DNA from: a virus
DNA: 21,635 nucleotides
Direction: 5' to 3' (one strand)
IMG/VR virus record: IMGVR_UViG_3300028615_000107
Location: 1 to 21,635 of that record
This document shows, piece by piece, positions 3,025-14,935 of this stretch. The position numbers were made by a program, and so were the translations under genes. The notes below the pieces were generated by a model that was not told the origin of the DNA, did no database searches, and saw only the letters and a program-made list of their open reading frames with translations. How positions within the stretch are numbered: the stretch's first letter is position 1; each line of letters starts with the position of its first letter.

Positions 3025-3052
3025 TTGACAAACGAACGAAAAATATTAGATT
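3025..3052 (+). promoter_or_regulatory. Candidate sigma70-like promoter
   Basis: A perfect -35 box TTGACA (3025-3030) is followed after 16 bases by TAGATT (3047-3052; four of six match to TATAAT). It sits just after a terminator and before the metallophosphoesterase gene, exactly where a new transcript must begin. The -10 match is imperfect; TTATAA at 3051-3056 is an alternative with a 20-base spacer. Confidence 0.5.
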
Positions 3053-3069
3053 ATAAGAAAGGTTTTGAG

Positions 3070-3735
3070 ATGAAAATTTATGTGATTGGGGATATCCACG
3101 GCGGGTTCGAATTTCTTCCGAACATCTTGAAAGATGTACATCCCAGCGCATTTGTTGTTCAGGTAGGAGACTTTGGTGTCTACCGTGAATATAAGAGTCG
3201 TTGGGAAAAAGTTGTGAAGGATATTAAACAACATATTTTCTTCATCGATGGAAACCACGAGGAATTTCCGTTGTTTTATGATCCAGATAGAAGAGTTCCA
3301 CTTCCTGTTTGGCCACAATTGACATGGATTCCTCGCGGAACAGTTTTAGAAGTTAATGGTTATCGAATCGGATTTATGGGAGGCGCTGCGTCAGTTGATA
3401 AAGCACTTCGAACCGAAGGTCTTGATTGGTGGCCACAAGAAGTAATTTCGTATGGCGAGTTTGAGAGAATGTTGAAGAATGAAGGTCCAATTGACCTTCT
3501 AATTACTCATACTCCGCCACAGAGAATTATTAGTAGACGATTTCGTCATCCATCGATGGTAGCTCCTTCGTGGAGACTATCGCCCGATTGGATTGATTGG
3601 TCAGCAGTTGCAGTCGAGAAAATCTGGGATCATTTTGATAATCCAGATTTGATTTGCGGACATTTTCATTCTAGTTTCAAAGATGAGAATTGTCGAGCAC
3701 TTGACATAAATGAACTGGTTGTTTGGGAGGGATAA
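3070..3735 (+). CDS. Metallophosphoesterase (calcineurin-like)
   Basis: A 221-residue protein with the full metallophosphoesterase motif series: GDIHG (7-11), GDFG (33-36), GNHE (61-64), THTPP (146-150) and GHFH (197-200). These residues bind the two catalytic metals, so an active phosphomono- or diesterase is expected; the substrate could be a nucleotide, a protein phosphate or a cyclic nucleotide. ATG 3070 is preferred over the TTG at 3019 because AAAGG (3058-3062) is seven bases before it and because 3019 lies within the terminator. It is the first gene after the candidate promoter and heads a run of three predicted phosphoesterases or nucleases (this gene, HNH and HD). Confidence 0.93.
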   Translation: MKIYVIGDIHGGFEFLPNILKDVHPSAFVVQVGDFGVYREYKSRWEKVVKDIKQHIFFIDGNHEEFPLFYDPDRRVPLPVWPQLTWIPRGTVLEVNGYRIGFMGGAASVDKALRTEGLDWWPQEVISYGEFERMLKNEGPIDLLITHTPPQRIISRRFRHPSMVAPSWRLSPDWIDWSAVAVEKIWDHFDNPDLICGHFHSSFKDENCRALDINELVVWEG

Positions 3736-3747
3736 CTATTTATTAAT

Positions 3748-4056
3748 ATGATTAGAATTCCATCTGTAACTCCCGGCTCATTTCGTCAATATCTGATGAC
3801 GCGACGCGACCGCGTCTACCGATATGTTGTAAGAGAGATTGGAAAGGCGGTAGAGGAAAGTCTACCGTCTATCCAACTCTTTCAAATTAGTAAATCTAAT
3901 GATATATTGGAACTTAAGGAGAAAAACTACATAGTAATACTCAATGCTGCAATGAATTTCTTCGTCACAAAAGAAATGTATGAAGATGCAGCAGTCTGTA
4001 GAGATATTATTCGTCAGATAAATGAGGATGTGACGAAAGGGGAGGAAAATGATTGA
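3748..4056 (+). CDS. Hypothetical 102-aa protein with a UVR-like helical motif
   Basis: The C-terminal part (about residues 66-95) contains MYEDAAVCRDIIRQI, which resembles the UVR motif of UvrB/UvrC (F/Y-E-x-A-A-x2-x-R-D-x-I). The motif normally forms a helical hairpin for protein contact, so an adaptor role is conceivable. The N-terminal part is basic (MTRRDRVYRYVVREI). I infer this by eye and the resemblance may be convergent. The ATG at 3748 has no ribosome site at normal distance; GGAGG is 16 bases upstream and the intervening bases are ACTATTTATTAAT. It overlaps the next gene by eight bases. Confidence 0.75.
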   Translation: MIRIPSVTPGSFRQYLMTRRDRVYRYVVREIGKAVEESLPSIQLFQISKSNDILELKEKNYIVILNAAMNFFVTKEMYEDAAVCRDIIRQINEDVTKGEEND

Positions 4057-4576
4057 TGGGATACGATGCATTATACTTAATCAGTCGTATGAGCCGCTGT
4101 CGGTTGTTTCGTCTAAGCGAGGCCTAATTCTGGTCATCGAAGGCAAAGCAACGATTAGTGAGGCTCATCCTACGTTACAAATTCGCTCGGTTAAGCAGGC
4201 ATGGCCCGTTCCAACTCAGATTGTTTTGAATGAGTATCGGAAGGCTCGTCCAGCCAATCTTGTCCCGGCGCAATTGACACAACGCAACTTGTTCATTCGT
4301 GACAAATACAAGTGTCAATATTGTGGTCGTGAAAAGAGGGATCTTAATCATGGCGAGTTTTTGACGCGAGATCACATTATCCCTACAAACAAAGGCGGTC
4401 GTGACCACTGGCTGAACGTTGTTACCGCATGTAATGCTTGTAATAACCGAAAGGCAGACTATACGCTAGAGGATGCAAATCTCTATTTCAACATGGAGTT
4501 GCTTAACAAGCCTCGTATTCCAACTGTATTCGAAATCTGGTCACGGGTTCGAGTCAAATATCCGAAAGTGAATTAG
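4049..4576 (+). CDS. HNH endonuclease
   Basis: A 175-residue protein with a C-terminal HNH nuclease domain (residues about 80-140). Zinc-binding pairs are CQYC (89-92) and CNAC (128-131). The catalytic segment is TRDHIIP with Asp108-His109, followed by GGRDHWLN and NNRKAD. The N-terminal 75 residues (LNQSYEPLSV, then a Lys/Arg-rich strand and VIEGKA) match the conserved leader of a widespread bacterial and phage HNH family. There is no intron or flanking repeat, so it looks like a stand-alone phage enzyme and not a homing element. GGAGG (4041-4045) is unusually close to the ATG, three bases. It overlaps the preceding gene by eight bases and is followed two bases later by the HD gene. Confidence 0.92.
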   Translation: MIDGIRCIILNQSYEPLSVVSSKRGLILVIEGKATISEAHPTLQIRSVKQAWPVPTQIVLNEYRKARPANLVPAQLTQRNLFIRDKYKCQYCGREKRDLNHGEFLTRDHIIPTNKGGRDHWLNVVTACNACNNRKADYTLEDANLYFNMELLNKPRIPTVFEIWSRVRVKYPKVN

Positions 4577-5459: not shown

Positions 5460-5939
5460 ATGACTACTACAAAGAACCTACCTTCGATATTTCCACGATT
5501 TGATATTCGCGAGTTTGAACCTTTCGATTTGCTTTTCAAAGAAGCAATAGAAAGTTTATTTCCTGAGCACGAAAAATTTTCAAGAGTAGCTTGGGGTCGT
5601 TTTCCGAAACTCAATATTTTAGAATATTCAGATCGTCTTGAAATTGAAGCTGAACTCGCAGGCTTGACAAAAGACGATATTGATATTAAGATTGAAGATG
5701 GAATTTTGACTCTAAGTGGTCTACACCAATCTGGAAATCATAAAGAAGGCAAGAAAGAAGAAGAGCCACGGTATATTGTGAGAGAGTTACGTAGATCTTT
5801 CTTCAAGAGAGACATCGTTCTCGGTGATACTCTTGATGAGGAATCTGTTAACGCAACGTTTAACAACGGTGTTCTCACAATAACTATCGACAAGAAAGAA
5901 GTCGATAAACCAAAAGCTCGCAAAATCGAGATTAAATAG
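5460..5939 (+). CDS. hsp20: Small heat-shock protein, Hsp20/alpha-crystallin family
   Basis: A 159-residue ATP-independent chaperone that would hold unfolding proteins. The alpha-crystallin domain spans about residues 48-150. It includes FPKLNILEYSDRLEIEAELA, then DIDIKIEDGILTLSG and RSFFKRDIVLGD, and the closing FNNGVLTITI. The C-terminal extension ends with the IxI motif in KIEIK, which docks on neighbouring subunits. Length is normal for bacterial and phage Hsp20. AGGAG (5449-5453) is six bases before the ATG. Phage-borne Hsp20 is known from T4-like phages of aquatic bacteria and may assist folding of virion proteins. It is preceded by a structured leader. Confidence 0.95.
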   Translation: MTTTKNLPSIFPRFDIREFEPFDLLFKEAIESLFPEHEKFSRVAWGRFPKLNILEYSDRLEIEAELAGLTKDDIDIKIEDGILTLSGLHQSGNHKEGKKEEEPRYIVRELRRSFFKRDIVLGDTLDEESVNATFNNGVLTITIDKKEVDKPKARKIEIK

Positions 5940-7486: not shown

Positions 7487-8140
7487 ATGAAAATTTCATT
7501 CGGAATTACGACACATAATGAGGGTGCTTCTCTAGGAGAATTGTTAGAGCAGCTCGTCACTTTTATTGAAGATACTAATACAGATGATGAGATTGTTATT
7601 CTAGACGACTATTCCGATGACGAAGAAACCGTCAATATTCTTAGCAAATATGAAGGAGAATATCCTTTCATTTCAATACACTATCGAGCTCTTGAACGAG
7701 ACTTTGGAGCTCAAAAAACCCACCTAAATTCCCTCTGCGAAGGCGACTATATTTTTCAGATTGACGCCGACGAATTAGTATCTCAAGATCTTCTAGAAAA
7801 CCTTCACGAAATTATTGAAGGCAATCCGACGATTGATTTGTTTTGGATTCCACGAATCAATACGGTTGATGGATTGACTGATGAACATATTGAGATGTGG
7901 AATTGGAAGGTAAATGAGCATGGTTGGGTTTTGTTCCCCGATTATCAGTCGAGAATATATCGTAATTCTCCTGAGATTATTTGGGTTGGAAAAGTACATG
8001 AGAGAATTGACGGGATTGAGAAATATGGCCATCTTCCGCCTGAGCCGGAATATTGTCTCCTTCATCATAAGGAAATCAGTCGTCAGGAAAAACAGAACGA
8101 GTTTTACTCGTCAATTCTACAAGAGATGAGGAATCAATAA
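7487..8140 (+). CDS. Glycosyltransferase, family 2 (GT-A fold)
   Basis: A 217-residue protein with the hallmarks of GT2 enzymes. The opening strand is ISFGITTHNEG, the nucleotide-sugar site VILDDYSDDE lies at about 37-46, and the metal-binding DxD is DAD at 93-95 in YIFQIDADE. Downstream features include GKVHERI and LLHHKEISR, the latter like the terminal His/Lys segment of related enzymes. There is no membrane segment. It may glycosylate phage DNA, a virion protein or a host surface sugar; the sequence does not decide. The ribosome site is weak (AGAGG upstream of 7487). The stop overlaps the ATG of the next gene (TAATG). Confidence 0.9.
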   Translation: MKISFGITTHNEGASLGELLEQLVTFIEDTNTDDEIVILDDYSDDEETVNILSKYEGEYPFISIHYRALERDFGAQKTHLNSLCEGDYIFQIDADELVSQDLLENLHEIIEGNPTIDLFWIPRINTVDGLTDEHIEMWNWKVNEHGWVLFPDYQSRIYRNSPEIIWVGKVHERIDGIEKYGHLPPEPEYCLLHHKEISRQEKQNEFYSSILQEMRNQ

Positions 8141-9265: not shown

Positions 9266-9676
9266 ATGGAAAATCCCGAAATTTTTAAAGGTAAAACTTT
9301 TGAAGGGTTGCTCAAAGACATTTATGACAACACCTTTGAGAAGAAGCACAGTATAGTGCAGTTAAAAGACCAGTTAGCTAAACTGATTAATACTCCCGCA
9401 GAAGCAGCAATGGTTATTCCACTAGTCAAAGATCTGTTAGAAATTGAAGTCAAAAATGATGAACATCTCGTCAAGATGGCAACCATTATTCAGAGATTAA
9501 TGTCTACAAAGGCAAAGACAGGCAGCTCTGACCTTGACGCCCTTTTGACTGAACAGGAAAAGCAAGATCTTATGGCTGAGCTCGACACCGTTCTCACAGG
9601 CGATGATGATGTTGAGAAAATCAAAGAAAAAGCGAAAAACGTTTTAGAGGTTAAGGATGAGAAGAAGGATTCGTAA
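9266..9676 (+). CDS. Hypothetical helical 136-aa protein at the head of the structural block
   Basis: A predicted all-helical, soluble protein with no recognised domain. Visible segments are FEGLLKDIYDNTFEKK, then MVIPLVKDLLEIEVKNDEHL, then MATIIQRLM, a linker (TKAKTGSSD) and an acidic C-terminal helix. GGAGG (9254-9258) is seven bases before the ATG. As first gene after the terminator and immediately before the gp5-like gene (20-base overlap), it may be a baseplate assembly factor or minor virion protein, inferred from position only. Confidence 0.8.
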   Translation: MENPEIFKGKTFEGLLKDIYDNTFEKKHSIVQLKDQLAKLINTPAEAAMVIPLVKDLLEIEVKNDEHLVKMATIIQRLMSTKAKTGSSDLDALLTEQEKQDLMAELDTVLTGDDDVEKIKEKAKNVLEVKDEKKDS

Positions 9677-10436
9677 CGCGGGCCAAGCTCTCTATGATAC
9701 GGGAGCTACATTTTTTGATGTTACTCGCGAGTCAATATCTCAAATTCAATATGATACGCTGCAGTGGGAAGAAGCTGTAGTCGTTGATGTAATTACAAAT
9801 GATAGCCATCCTGAATATACTGCTGATGGATTTAATGTAGGTGCTATTAAGTTTCGTTTTACTCATCGTGACGCATATCGAACCGATTCACAGTTGCTAT
9901 GGGCATGGCCAATTGAATCCAATATCAGCGAATATCCTCTCAAAAACGAAATCGTTATGGTCATTCTTTCTCAGGGCAATAACGTATTCTTCTATTCTCG
10001 CAAACTTAATCTTCGAAATCGTGTAACCGCAAATCCTAAGTTTGGCGTCATATCTGAAACAAAGGGAGACGAAACAAACGATGAGGATACGCGAAACAAA
10101 ACCGATGTTGATGAGGGACTTGGGCCCTTAAATGGTGAGAGAACGGAAGATGAAGAAATCAATCGTCTTGGCAACACTTTTCAGGATCGATATGATATAT
10201 TTCGCCTTCGACATAATGAAGGCGACTTAATTATTGAGGGTCGATCAGGACAGTCTATTCGACTTGGTTCGCAGCTTCAAGAAGATGCTCCACAGGAGCC
10301 AAATATTCTAATTCGCTGTGGCGCTGATGTAACCGAACAGGAAATTTTTGCGTCACCATACGCTCTTGTTAGTGAATCTTTTCAAAATGACAAAAGTTCT
10401 ATATGGCTTGTTTCAAATCAACCAATTCCCGACTGA
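9657..10436 (+). CDS. 5: gp5-like baseplate OB-fold protein, N-terminal part (frame interrupted)
   Basis: The 259-residue frame contains the N-terminal OB-fold region of T4-like gp5 (about residues 37-117): EEAVVVDVITND, GAIKFRF, LLWAWPIES, the typical YPLKNEIVMVI and FFYSRKLN. It continues into the beta-rich part (RLRHNEGDLIIEGRSGQSIRLG, then PNILIRCG) and SSIWLVSNQPIP, then meets TGA at 10434. The family normally continues past this point, and the continuation lies one base back in the next ORF. Adding one C to the CCC at 10428-10430 joins both into about 430 residues. There is no lysozyme domain as in T4 gp5. GAGG (9647-9650) is six bases before the ATG. Confidence 0.85.
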   Translation: MRRRIRNAGQALYDTGATFFDVTRESISQIQYDTLQWEEAVVVDVITNDSHPEYTADGFNVGAIKFRFTHRDAYRTDSQLLWAWPIESNISEYPLKNEIVMVILSQGNNVFFYSRKLNLRNRVTANPKFGVISETKGDETNDEDTRNKTDVDEGLGPLNGERTEDEEINRLGNTFQDRYDIFRLRHNEGDLIIEGRSGQSIRLGSQLQEDAPQEPNILIRCGADVTEQEIFASPYALVSESFQNDKSSIWLVSNQPIPD

Positions 10437-10948
10437 TATTTAATAGTGAGAATAATATTCTTGTCAGCTCGTTTCGTGGCACTCATTTATCAGCCGGAGA
10501 AAATATCACAGTAGACACTGCCAAAGAATATCGCAGTTATTCGTCAGGCAGTCGCAAGGTTCAGTCTGACCAAAACTATAATATTATTACGGCTGAGGAT
10601 TATTTATTAAGTGTAGGAAAAGATCAAATTGTCGAGATTACGGGAAGCACTGCGCATAATAGCACGGGACCGCATTCGATTACTGCTGAAAAGATATTTA
10701 TTGGATCTAGGAGTGATGAGGAAGAACCTGCTGTATTTGGTGAGGAGCTTCGTAAATTGCTATTAGAGTTCGTTGATGCACATTTGAACAATGCAGCAAC
10801 TCATACAATTCCTACAATTGGAGTTGGCCCGCTCAATCCAGCAGTGGTGTCAGCATTAAACGCAATCAAAAGCAAATTGCAGAGTGAAAAAGAAGCACCG
10901 TTTGAATCAAAAACCGTGTTTATTTCAGATGAACAGAATGGAGAATAA
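10403..10948 (+). CDS. 5: gp5-like baseplate protein, C-terminal part in the -1 frame
   Basis: This frame continues the gp5-like protein. From about 10430 it reads RLIFNSENNILVSSFRG, LSAGENITVD, then a run of short beta repeats (NYNIITAEDYLLSVGKDQIVEI, broken here as NYNIITAEDY and LLSVGKDQIVEI) and EKIFIGS. It ends with a helical segment (EELRKLLLEFVDAHL). The repeats are of the needle or beta-helix kind, and the ending resembles gp5-like proteins of cyanophage type. The ATG at 10403 has no ribosome site and its first nine residues overlap the other frame, so independent initiation is unlikely. Most probably a single protein with the upstream ORF. Confidence 0.75.
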   Translation: MACFKSTNSRLIFNSENNILVSSFRGTHLSAGENITVDTAKEYRSYSSGSRKVQSDQNYNIITAEDYLLSVGKDQIVEITGSTAHNSTGPHSITAEKIFIGSRSDEEEPAVFGEELRKLLLEFVDAHLNNAATHTIPTIGVGPLNPAVVSALNAIKSKLQSEKEAPFESKTVFISDEQNGE

Positions 10949-10951
10949 GTT

Positions 10952-11425
10952 ATGACGAAAAAGCAGCTTAGACGCATGATTCGGGAAGAGGTCGTCAGAG
11001 AAGTCAACAAGATTTTGCCTGATGTTATTGAAGAAGCAATGGGGCAAGTCATACCTAAAGTTAAGAGACTTATCAAAGAATCGAGAAAGGTTCAGAAGCG
11101 ACAGACACAACCACAGGCTTCTACTCCAATTGATAGGACAAGAATGAAAGAGTTAATTGGTTATGGAGATTTTGAGCCGGGAATGAATCGCACAGAACCT
11201 TCACATTATCTTGAAGAATCTCATGCACCTGCAGCTTCCGGCCCACCGTCAATGGAAATCGCTGGTGTTCCCGTTGAGGGAGGATTGGCAGCTAGAGAAG
11301 AAGCTGCTTCTGCGGGAATGGATTTTCAGGCAATGCCACCGGAATTGCAAAAGGCTATAGCAAAATCGAAGAAGGTTTTGGATGATGTAGAAAAACGATC
11401 TAATTGGCGACCGGGTATGAAATAA
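10952..11425 (+). CDS. Hypothetical helical protein between gp5-like and gp25 genes, 157 aa
   Basis: The N-terminal 50 residues form a basic amphipathic helix or coiled coil (MTKKQLRRMIREEVVREVNK, then IPKVKRLIKESRKVQKRQ). A Gln/Pro/Ala-rich flexible middle follows, and a short C-terminal helix (ELQKAIAKSKKVLDDVEKR). No enzymatic motif. GGAG (10940-10943) is eight bases before the ATG, and the stop overlaps the ATG of gene 25. Position suggests a baseplate or tail assembly role; function unknown. Confidence 0.8.
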   Translation: MTKKQLRRMIREEVVREVNKILPDVIEEAMGQVIPKVKRLIKESRKVQKRQTQPQASTPIDRTRMKELIGYGDFEPGMNRTEPSHYLEESHAPAASGPPSMEIAGVPVEGGLAAREEAASAGMDFQAMPPELQKAIAKSKKVLDDVEKRSNWRPGMK

Positions 11426-11811: not shown

Positions 11812-13812
11812 GTGCCGACTTCAAGAGTAAATAGAGTTAGCAAAATCCAAAAGGATTTTACACCAACAGTTAAGGAAATCAAATATCTCAGCAAAACCTT
11901 TCCAGAGTTTCGCCGAGATTTGATTGAGTTTGCGAAAGTATATTTCCCAAACACATATGCAGACTTTAACGAAACTTCGCCGGGCATGATGTTCATCGAA
12001 ATGGCGTCATATATCGGTGATGTTTTGAGTTATTATATTGATACGCAGTATCGTGAGAATCTTCTTACACATGCAACTGAACGCTCGAATATTCTGAATA
12101 TTGCACAGTCATTCGGATTCAAGCCAAAACCAGCCGGCGCCGCAAATACAACCCTTGATGTATATCAGCTTTGTCCATCGTCAGGAAGTGGTGGCCAGTA
12201 TATTGATGACCGATATTTACTTCTCATTGCTCCAAATGCGAAATTTACATCAACTGCTTTTGGAGAGGTAGACTTCCGCAATCCACAAGCAATTGATTTT
12301 CGTGATCCAATTGGTCGTTCAGAAACCGTATTCTCAGTAGATGCAAATAATGTTCCGCTGACATATCTTGTTAAGAAAAGAGCAAAAGTGTCAGCCGGAA
12401 CAATCAAAACAATCACAAGAACCTTTGGCGAACCGACGAAATTCAGCAAGATTAGATTGCCGGAAGCAAACGTTCTTGGTGTTATTAGCATAACTGACTC
12501 AAACGGAAATCTGTGGTCAGAAGTTGATTATTTGGCTCAAGATATCGTAATTGACGAAACGGAGCTGACTCAATATCAATTTAATGAAGCTATAGCTGAA
12601 CAAACAGGAAGTGATACTACCCCTGTTCCACCAAAGATGTTGCAGTTTAGAACGGAACCGCTTCGTTATGCAACTCGCTATAATGAAGATTTTCAGTTGG
12701 AAGTTATATTTGGTTCAGGCGTAGTTGATGATAATAATGAGAACGTCACATTAGATGTGACAAAAATTGCGAGTTCAGAATTTACAACTCGTCAGTCAAG
12801 CACGAGCGTTGACCCCGCTGACTTTTTGGCAAATTCCACTTTCGGCCGAGCACCAGCAAACACCACGTTAACCATTACTTATGTTGTTGGAGGCGGAATT
12901 GAAAGCAATGTTCCGGCTGGAACGATAACCCGAGTCAGCAATGTTAATGTGTTAAACACATCGGATGCATTTACTACAGCTGCAGAAAAGGCACTATTTT
13001 CAGATACTATTACATCAATTGCTTGTAATAATGTTGAGTCAGCAACAGGTGGCCGCGGTGCCGAAAGCGTTGAAGAAATCCGTCAGAACGCTTTTGCATT
13101 TTTCAATGCTCAAAATCGTGTCGTCACCGCCGAAGATTATGTAGTCCGTTCTTACGCGATGCCGCCACAATTTGGTTCGGTTTCAAAGGCATTTGTATTG
13201 AGTGACGACCAGCTACAGCTTATTGAAGAAGCAGAAGCTGGCACCGGCGGAATTCCAAGTGACGCTAGACTAGTATCCGAAGAAGCGCAAGAAAACCAAG
13301 TCAATCTGTATGTTCTTGGATATGACCAGAACAAGATTGTTCGTCGTTTGAATTCCGCAACAAAAGATAACTTGAAGCGATATCTCTCTCGTTACGCTAT
13401 GGTTAATGATTTGATTGTCATTCACGATGCATTTGTGGTTAATATTGGAGTTGAGTTTAGAGTCGCTGCCTTTAAGAATTACAATCTTAACGATGTTCTT
13501 GCGCGTTGCATTGATTCCGTCAAAGACTTTTTTGATATTGACAAGTGGCAGATAAATCAGCCGATTGTTGTGAGTGACCTTTATACGACACTTGCTCAAA
13601 TCGATGGAGTCAAGAGTGTTCTCAGACTTAGAATATTCAACAAGTATGCTGCTACCCACGGCACGGCTTATGAGCCGTATCGTTATGATATTGACACGAT
13701 GGCAACAATTAGAACTGACGACGAATGGGGAATCATTTATCCGTCAATCGATCCGATGATTTTTGAAATGAGATTCCCCGATCAAGACATCGTTGGTTCG
13801 GCCGTATTGTGA
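11812..13812 (+). CDS. 6: Baseplate wedge protein gp6
   Basis: A 666-residue gp6/gpJ-like baseplate protein, close in length to T4 gp6 (660). It forms the ring that holds the wedges together and changes shape on contraction. Diagnostic is the N-terminal segment FNETSPGMMFIEMASYIGDV (about residues 52-71) followed by LSYYIDTQYREN and the FGFKP turn. Also typical is AESVEEIRQNAFAFFNAQNR with VVTAEDYVV near residue 430. The C-terminal domain (VVSDLYTTLAQIDGVKSV) is like the gpJ end. The start is GTG 11812 with AGGAG (11801-11805) six bases upstream. No interruption is visible. Confidence 0.95.
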   Translation: MPTSRVNRVSKIQKDFTPTVKEIKYLSKTFPEFRRDLIEFAKVYFPNTYADFNETSPGMMFIEMASYIGDVLSYYIDTQYRENLLTHATERSNILNIAQSFGFKPKPAGAANTTLDVYQLCPSSGSGGQYIDDRYLLLIAPNAKFTSTAFGEVDFRNPQAIDFRDPIGRSETVFSVDANNVPLTYLVKKRAKVSAGTIKTITRTFGEPTKFSKIRLPEANVLGVISITDSNGNLWSEVDYLAQDIVIDETELTQYQFNEAIAEQTGSDTTPVPPKMLQFRTEPLRYATRYNEDFQLEVIFGSGVVDDNNENVTLDVTKIASSEFTTRQSSTSVDPADFLANSTFGRAPANTTLTITYVVGGGIESNVPAGTITRVSNVNVLNTSDAFTTAAEKALFSDTITSIACNNVESATGGRGAESVEEIRQNAFAFFNAQNRVVTAEDYVVRSYAMPPQFGSVSKAFVLSDDQLQLIEEAEAGTGGIPSDARLVSEEAQENQVNLYVLGYDQNKIVRRLNSATKDNLKRYLSRYAMVNDLIVIHDAFVVNIGVEFRVAAFKNYNLNDVLARCIDSVKDFFDIDKWQINQPIVVSDLYTTLAQIDGVKSVLRLRIFNKYAATHGTAYEPYRYDIDTMATIRTDDEWGIIYPSIDPMIFEMRFPDQDIVGSAVL

Positions 13813-13822
13813 GGATTGACTA

Positions 13823-14935
13823 ATGCCTAGACGATTTATTACACCGTCACAAGATGTGACAATTTATCAAGAATATCCTAGACGAAATACTGGTAAGGAT
13901 GAGGTAATTGAAGTTGGTAAGGATGATACAGGAGCATTTATCATTCGCGGACTTCTTCAATTTGACTTGACAACTTATTCAGCAAGTTTAGCTAGTGGAG
14001 ACATTGCGGCCAACGCCGACTTTTATCTCAACCTTCGTTTAGCAAAGGCTTATAGCCTTCAGACTAGCCAACAGGTTGAGTTTTATATGGTCAGTCAGAG
14101 TTGGGAAGAGGGCACCGGATATTTTGCACAAGACATCAAAAATCCGAAAGATGGCGCGGATTGGCAATTCCGCGTCAACACAGATCAAGTTGTTGTATCC
14201 GAATCCCTTACAGCATCAGTTGGTAAGTGGGGTGGTGATCCGTTTAACCCTATAACCGGATCAACGTGGTGGAGTGGTTCGGGAGTCGGAAAGCCAAGCG
14301 CATCAGTTACATTTGGAGATCCGCCAGAGGATGTTCGTGTTGATGTAACCGCGTTTATTCGTGATTGGGTTTCTGGCTCAACGGCAAACAATGGATTTGT
14401 TATTAAATATCCTATTGCAGACGAGATTAACGGAAACGTCAAATCGGTCCTTCGGTTTTTCTCAGGCGATACTCATACGATATATCCGCCTACGCTTGAA
14501 GCGTTTTGGAATAACCAAGTAATTAAAACTAGAGTTGGCAATTTCCAAGTTTTAAATTCTGCTCCTGATGAGTTTGAATTGTTTGTTAGAAATATGCCGG
14601 GAGAAATGGCAACAGGATCAGTTTATCGACTTCGGTTTGGAGTAAGAGATTTGTATCCAATTAAGTCATTTACAGATTCAAATCGATTTGAGAACAAATA
14701 TTTCCTTCCAAGTGGATCATATCTTGGCGTCAAAGATGCAAGTAATGGAGACTTTATTGTTCCATTTGATTCTGGCTCCTTGTTGAGTGCGGATACGACA
14801 AGCAGTTATTTTGACTTGAAAATTGAGAATATGTTTATCAATCGAACATACGAAATTTACGTCAAAGTAGATAAGAGTTGGGGCACAGAAGTATACAACA
14901 CCGGCCATCGGTTTAAAGTAGTAAGAGGATACTAA
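13823..14935 (+). CDS. Structural protein with DNRLRE/CBM-like beta domain
   Basis: A 370-residue protein. Residues about 5-230 follow the layout of DNRLRE or CBM96-like domains: IIRGLLQFDL, then FYLNLRLAKA, a Trp-rich middle with SWEEGTGYF and TWWSGSG, then VRVDVTAFIRDWVSGS and NNGFVIKYP. The C-terminal part (about 240-370) is another beta domain ending YEIYVKVDKSWGTE. Such domains occur as carbohydrate-binding or decorating modules. Placed directly after gp6, it is probably a peripheral baseplate or tail component, possibly binding surface glycans; this is inference. A GAGG lies about ten bases before the ATG. Confidence 0.82.
   Translation: MPRRFITPSQDVTIYQEYPRRNTGKDEVIEVGKDDTGAFIIRGLLQFDLTTYSASLASGDIAANADFYLNLRLAKAYSLQTSQQVEFYMVSQSWEEGTGYFAQDIKNPKDGADWQFRVNTDQVVVSESLTASVGKWGGDPFNPITGSTWWSGSGVGKPSASVTFGDPPEDVRVDVTAFIRDWVSGSTANNGFVIKYPIADEINGNVKSVLRFFSGDTHTIYPPTLEAFWNNQVIKTRVGNFQVLNSAPDEFELFVRNMPGEMATGSVYRLRFGVRDLYPIKSFTDSNRFENKYFLPSGSYLGVKDASNGDFIVPFDSGSLLSADTTSSYFDLKIENMFINRTYEIYVKVDKSWGTEVYNTGHRFKVVRGY

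Follow-up and report, generated by a model that had tools for sequence, protein, structure and literature searches.

A recent out-of-frame deletion very probably interrupts a putative gp5/VgrG-type central-spike gene in a virus record

Both baseplate assembly and infection depend critically on the tail spike in phage T4 (PMC4576200), with T4 gp5 present in the particle as two chains that are generated by proteolysis of one product (PMC3004832). T4 gp5 proper carries an internal lysozyme domain and VxGxxxxx repeats, neither of which is apparent at the locus described here. Intact orthologues of the present gene are found in IMG/VR contigs (L031, L032, L033, L003, L040, L046 and others), in Microcystis phage Mel-JY01 (WWT39504.1) and in the uncultured phage LR756508.1, with L031 being the nearest relative. 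These orthologues belong to the same gene family and likewise precede the wedge genes at a similar position, their matched parts being mostly 25-49% identical to those of the window (the whole stretch of DNA analysed, a virus record of 21,635 bases in one contig), but they are uninterrupted ORFs that include a segment absent from it. The features of the window that bear on this difference are as follows.

9657-10436, + strand: N-terminal part of the putative central-spike gene (ORF1; 259 amino acids), comprising the OB-fold region, a linker and the start of the needle base
10403-10948, + strand: mechanical ORF2, running from an out-of-frame ATG without an upstream Shine-Dalgarno sequence
10427-10433, + strand: probable deletion junction, with the last matched N codon at 10428-10430 and the first matched C codon at 10430-10432; shorter than L031 by about 97 nt
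10430-10948, + strand: C-terminal part of the putative central-spike gene in the -1 frame, with a predicted beta-repeat needle and C-terminal helical segment
11425-11799, + strand: gp25-like baseplate wedge gene, intact (Pfam GPW_gp25, E 1.3e-14, scanned from an upstream TTG at 11404)
11812-13812, + strand: gp6-like baseplate wedge gene, intact (phrog_219, E 1.5e-19; 58% identity to its L031 counterpart along the gene)

ORF1 ends in ...SSIWLVSNQPIPD-TGA with the stop codon at 10434-10436, while the -1 frame, which holds RLIFNSENNIL, stays open over 10391-10948 and overlaps ORF1 by 46 nt. In keeping with this, codon usage scores positively only in each part's own frame (0.213 for the N part and 0.147 for the C part, other frames being negative), confirming that the coding frame switches at the junction from that of ORF1 to the -1 frame, as a preliminary description of this DNA had stated. 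The C part continues for more than 170 codons without a stop and with normal codon usage, and the GC content is flat across the junction.

A profile built from the intact relatives matches ORF1 at model positions 28-256 (E 8.6e-73) and the downstream -1 frame at model positions 290-454 (E 4.6e-43), confirming together with tblastn that the N and C halves belong to one family and one gene, in agreement with the earlier reading of a single gp5-like gene broken at this point. The 33 intervening positions (257-289) are unmatched in the window and fall exactly at the junction. In all 45 of the 45 loci with an ORF crossing the junction (several being near-duplicates, such that the independent cases are somewhat fewer) this gap is filled by 25-43 residues in one open frame, with a G-x-Q-I-x-x-N-S-D strand conserved at the end of the segment in most loci and lacking in the window. 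The suspicion that the junction was short, and that a small deletion was possible, was thereby borne out. The missing segment was not found elsewhere in the window by profile search (best E 0.36). Single continuous ORFs of 454-486 codons span both halves in L031, L033, L003, L040 and others, and two MAG contigs found with the gp6-like protein each carry a single ORF matching both sides of the junction region. A two-ORF layout was seen in none of the 45 relatives spanning the junction nor in any other relative examined.

The comparison with L031, to which the N part is 48% and the C part 46% identical, allows the size of the loss to be estimated. The L031 ORF extends over 458 codons stop to stop (457 amino acids from its ATG), with the N match reaching nucleotide 3261 and the C match resuming at 3358 in the same frame of the one ORF. 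As such 96 nt separate the two matches in L031, whereas in the window they overlap by one base, a net loss of about 97 nt that is not a multiple of three and therefore places the downstream part in the -1 frame. How much this lineage lost can be given only approximately, since the length of the segment varies among relatives by the range given above. In L031 the lost segment corresponds to residues 252-283, a stretch that begins just ahead of the first predicted needle strands (276-298, low confidence) and extends into them.

The gene is assigned with moderate confidence to the gp5/VgrG-type central spikes, the membrane-puncturing needles of contractile tails, based on predicted fold and gene order. 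Confidence in the predicted structure of the L031 protein is low overall (mean pLDDT 45) but fair around the OB fold, placed at residues of about 31-113, the region over which the N part of the window aligns. The best match of this region is to chain 9vzk_q of the phage P1 baseplate (Foldseek E 1.9e-4; Z 8.7 with an rmsd of 2.5 over 73 residues), followed by cyanophage A-1(L) (8kea_D), extracellular contractile injection systems, the phiKZ spike (6orj) and VgrG; other phage and VgrG spikes appear at Z 6-8, listed beside unrelated OB folds. Positions 288-369 of the family profile, at the needle, match the beta-repeat of a T6SS VgrG (8gra_I; E 2e-4), in a region where the monomer model is of low confidence. 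Unlike these solved spikes, the gene in the window is broken. Its place ahead of the gp25-like and gp6-like wedge genes is that of gp5/VgrG-type spikes, while scans against PHROG, Pfam and NCBIfam returned no named spike family at threshold. No lysozyme family matched the window parts or L031 and no lysozyme domain is apparent between the OB fold and the needle, such that the gene is not T4 gp5 proper; inspection of the alignment by eye likewise showed no regular VxGxxxxx repeats.

Taken with the intact relatives, the break is very probably the result of a single, recent out-of-frame deletion near 10430 that is not programmed, present either as an artefact or in a defective genome. A single net loss of the size estimated against L031 would have taken out the linker and the conserved strand at the needle base and shifted the remainder to the -1 frame, with translation ending at the TGA at 10434, so that as read the gene would be expected to yield no functional spike. 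The lesion is likely to be recent or artefactual because the C part is still open with normal codon usage. The locus would then be an ordinary case, a damaged copy of a gene of known type, with no recoding element and no new gene arrangement.

The frame change taken alone also fits a one-base difference, and the preliminary description had listed a base-call error among its options, noting that one C added to the C run would give a single protein. The restored protein would still be about 32 residues short of L031, and 25-43 residues short against 45 of 45 relatives, the conserved strand being included in the loss; it is thus highly unlikely that the true gene differs by a single base only. 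Programmed -1 ribosomal frameshifting, raised in the same description, would join the N and C parts in translation, and it is true that the downstream part lies in the -1 frame, that the frames overlap and that a weak fold follows. As had been noted, a slippery X-XXY-YYZ heptamer is absent from the overlap; at 10424, where tandem re-pairing is best, two identities out of three are kept on either side. The fold of 10425-10520 is not strong (z -1.40, with 15 of 200 shuffles folding as well, pseudoknots not being considered), a two-frame layout is found in no examined relative, and frameshifting would leave the missing segment unexplained. This makes frameshifting the least probable of the explanations considered.

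A genuine two-piece spike, assembled in trans from separately made ORF1 and ORF2 products, would be in keeping with both parts being open and the C part not being decayed, and T4 offers the two-chain gp5 particle form, arising there after translation. The second frame has a single ATG, at 10403, which is probably not a real start because it has no Shine-Dalgarno sequence upstream, one being present for most neighbouring genes, and the first nine residues of ORF2 are N-part sequence read out of frame. With the conserved strand lost and no examined relative split, the single-protein view put forward earlier held up against the relatives, and separate production of the two parts is very improbable. 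Equally improbable is the broader proposition that the deletion has become fixed in a living virus, whose spike would lack the conserved needle-base strand and be put together from two parts translated separately, or be produced by frameshifting. Were the deletion fixed and functional, the one-chain design of gp5-type spikes would come into question, a reading that nothing here supports. The case cautions against inferring programmed frameshifts from a single metagenomic contig; here the relatives reveal a missing segment and no recoding site.

A chimera of two distant viruses was also considered and rejected, both sides of the junction sharing L031 as nearest relative at similar identity, with synteny and flat GC. 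Exact 20- and 21-mers from each side of the junction gave no match in viral contigs (a set that may lack records very close to the window), and as no close DNA relative was found the ancestral sequence and exact breakpoints are not fixed. There are no direct repeats of more than 11 nt in 10300-10560 and no repeat is convincingly placed at the junction; with no long repeat flanking it, no obvious assembly mechanism is visible.

As to the origin of the out-of-frame deletion, an artefact of assembly or amplification, or a defective minority template within the sample, is judged somewhat the likelier source and a true deletion in the sampled genome only moderately less so, this being a matter of judgement rather than measurement. 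The leaning towards an artefact or minor template reflects the critical role of the spike in T4 together with the intact state of the rest of the tail block. All other genes from 8456 to the end of the window are open and tightly tiled, with synteny to L031 on both sides of the junction where L031 covers these genes. Clear breaks are very rare in several hundred copies, from related contigs, of five genes that neighbour the spike gene, with six apparent breaks consisting of a single stop close to the match end and read as edge effects. One clear out-of-frame loss of roughly 83-100 nt was found among these copies, in another tail gene of L073, such that isolated losses do occur in such records; the gene is intact in the close relatives L080 and L087, and relatives with no such loss reach 96% identity in protein. 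The affected L073 gene (2733-3768, with the loss at 3050-3058) is the homologue of the window gene at 13823-14935. A further homologue of this gene, in L007 (4425-5431), has an in-frame insertion of about 1 kb that is open throughout and resembles a beta-rich domain, possibly one that binds carbohydrate.

The interval between the spike and gp25 genes varies, the gene at 10952-11425 being present only in the nearest relatives L001, L031 and L032, while in Mel-JY01 the interval holds a chitinase-annotated gene and another gene. Elsewhere in this phage contig, an Hsp20 small heat-shock protein gene is located at 5460-5939 (Pfam HSP20, E 5.1e-21) and an HNH endonuclease gene at 4049-4576, the HNH region of which also matches IscB and Cas9d models far below cut-offs. 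A family 2 glycosyltransferase gene at 7487-8140 (Pfam E 3.4e-18) has a counterpart upstream of the L031 tail block.
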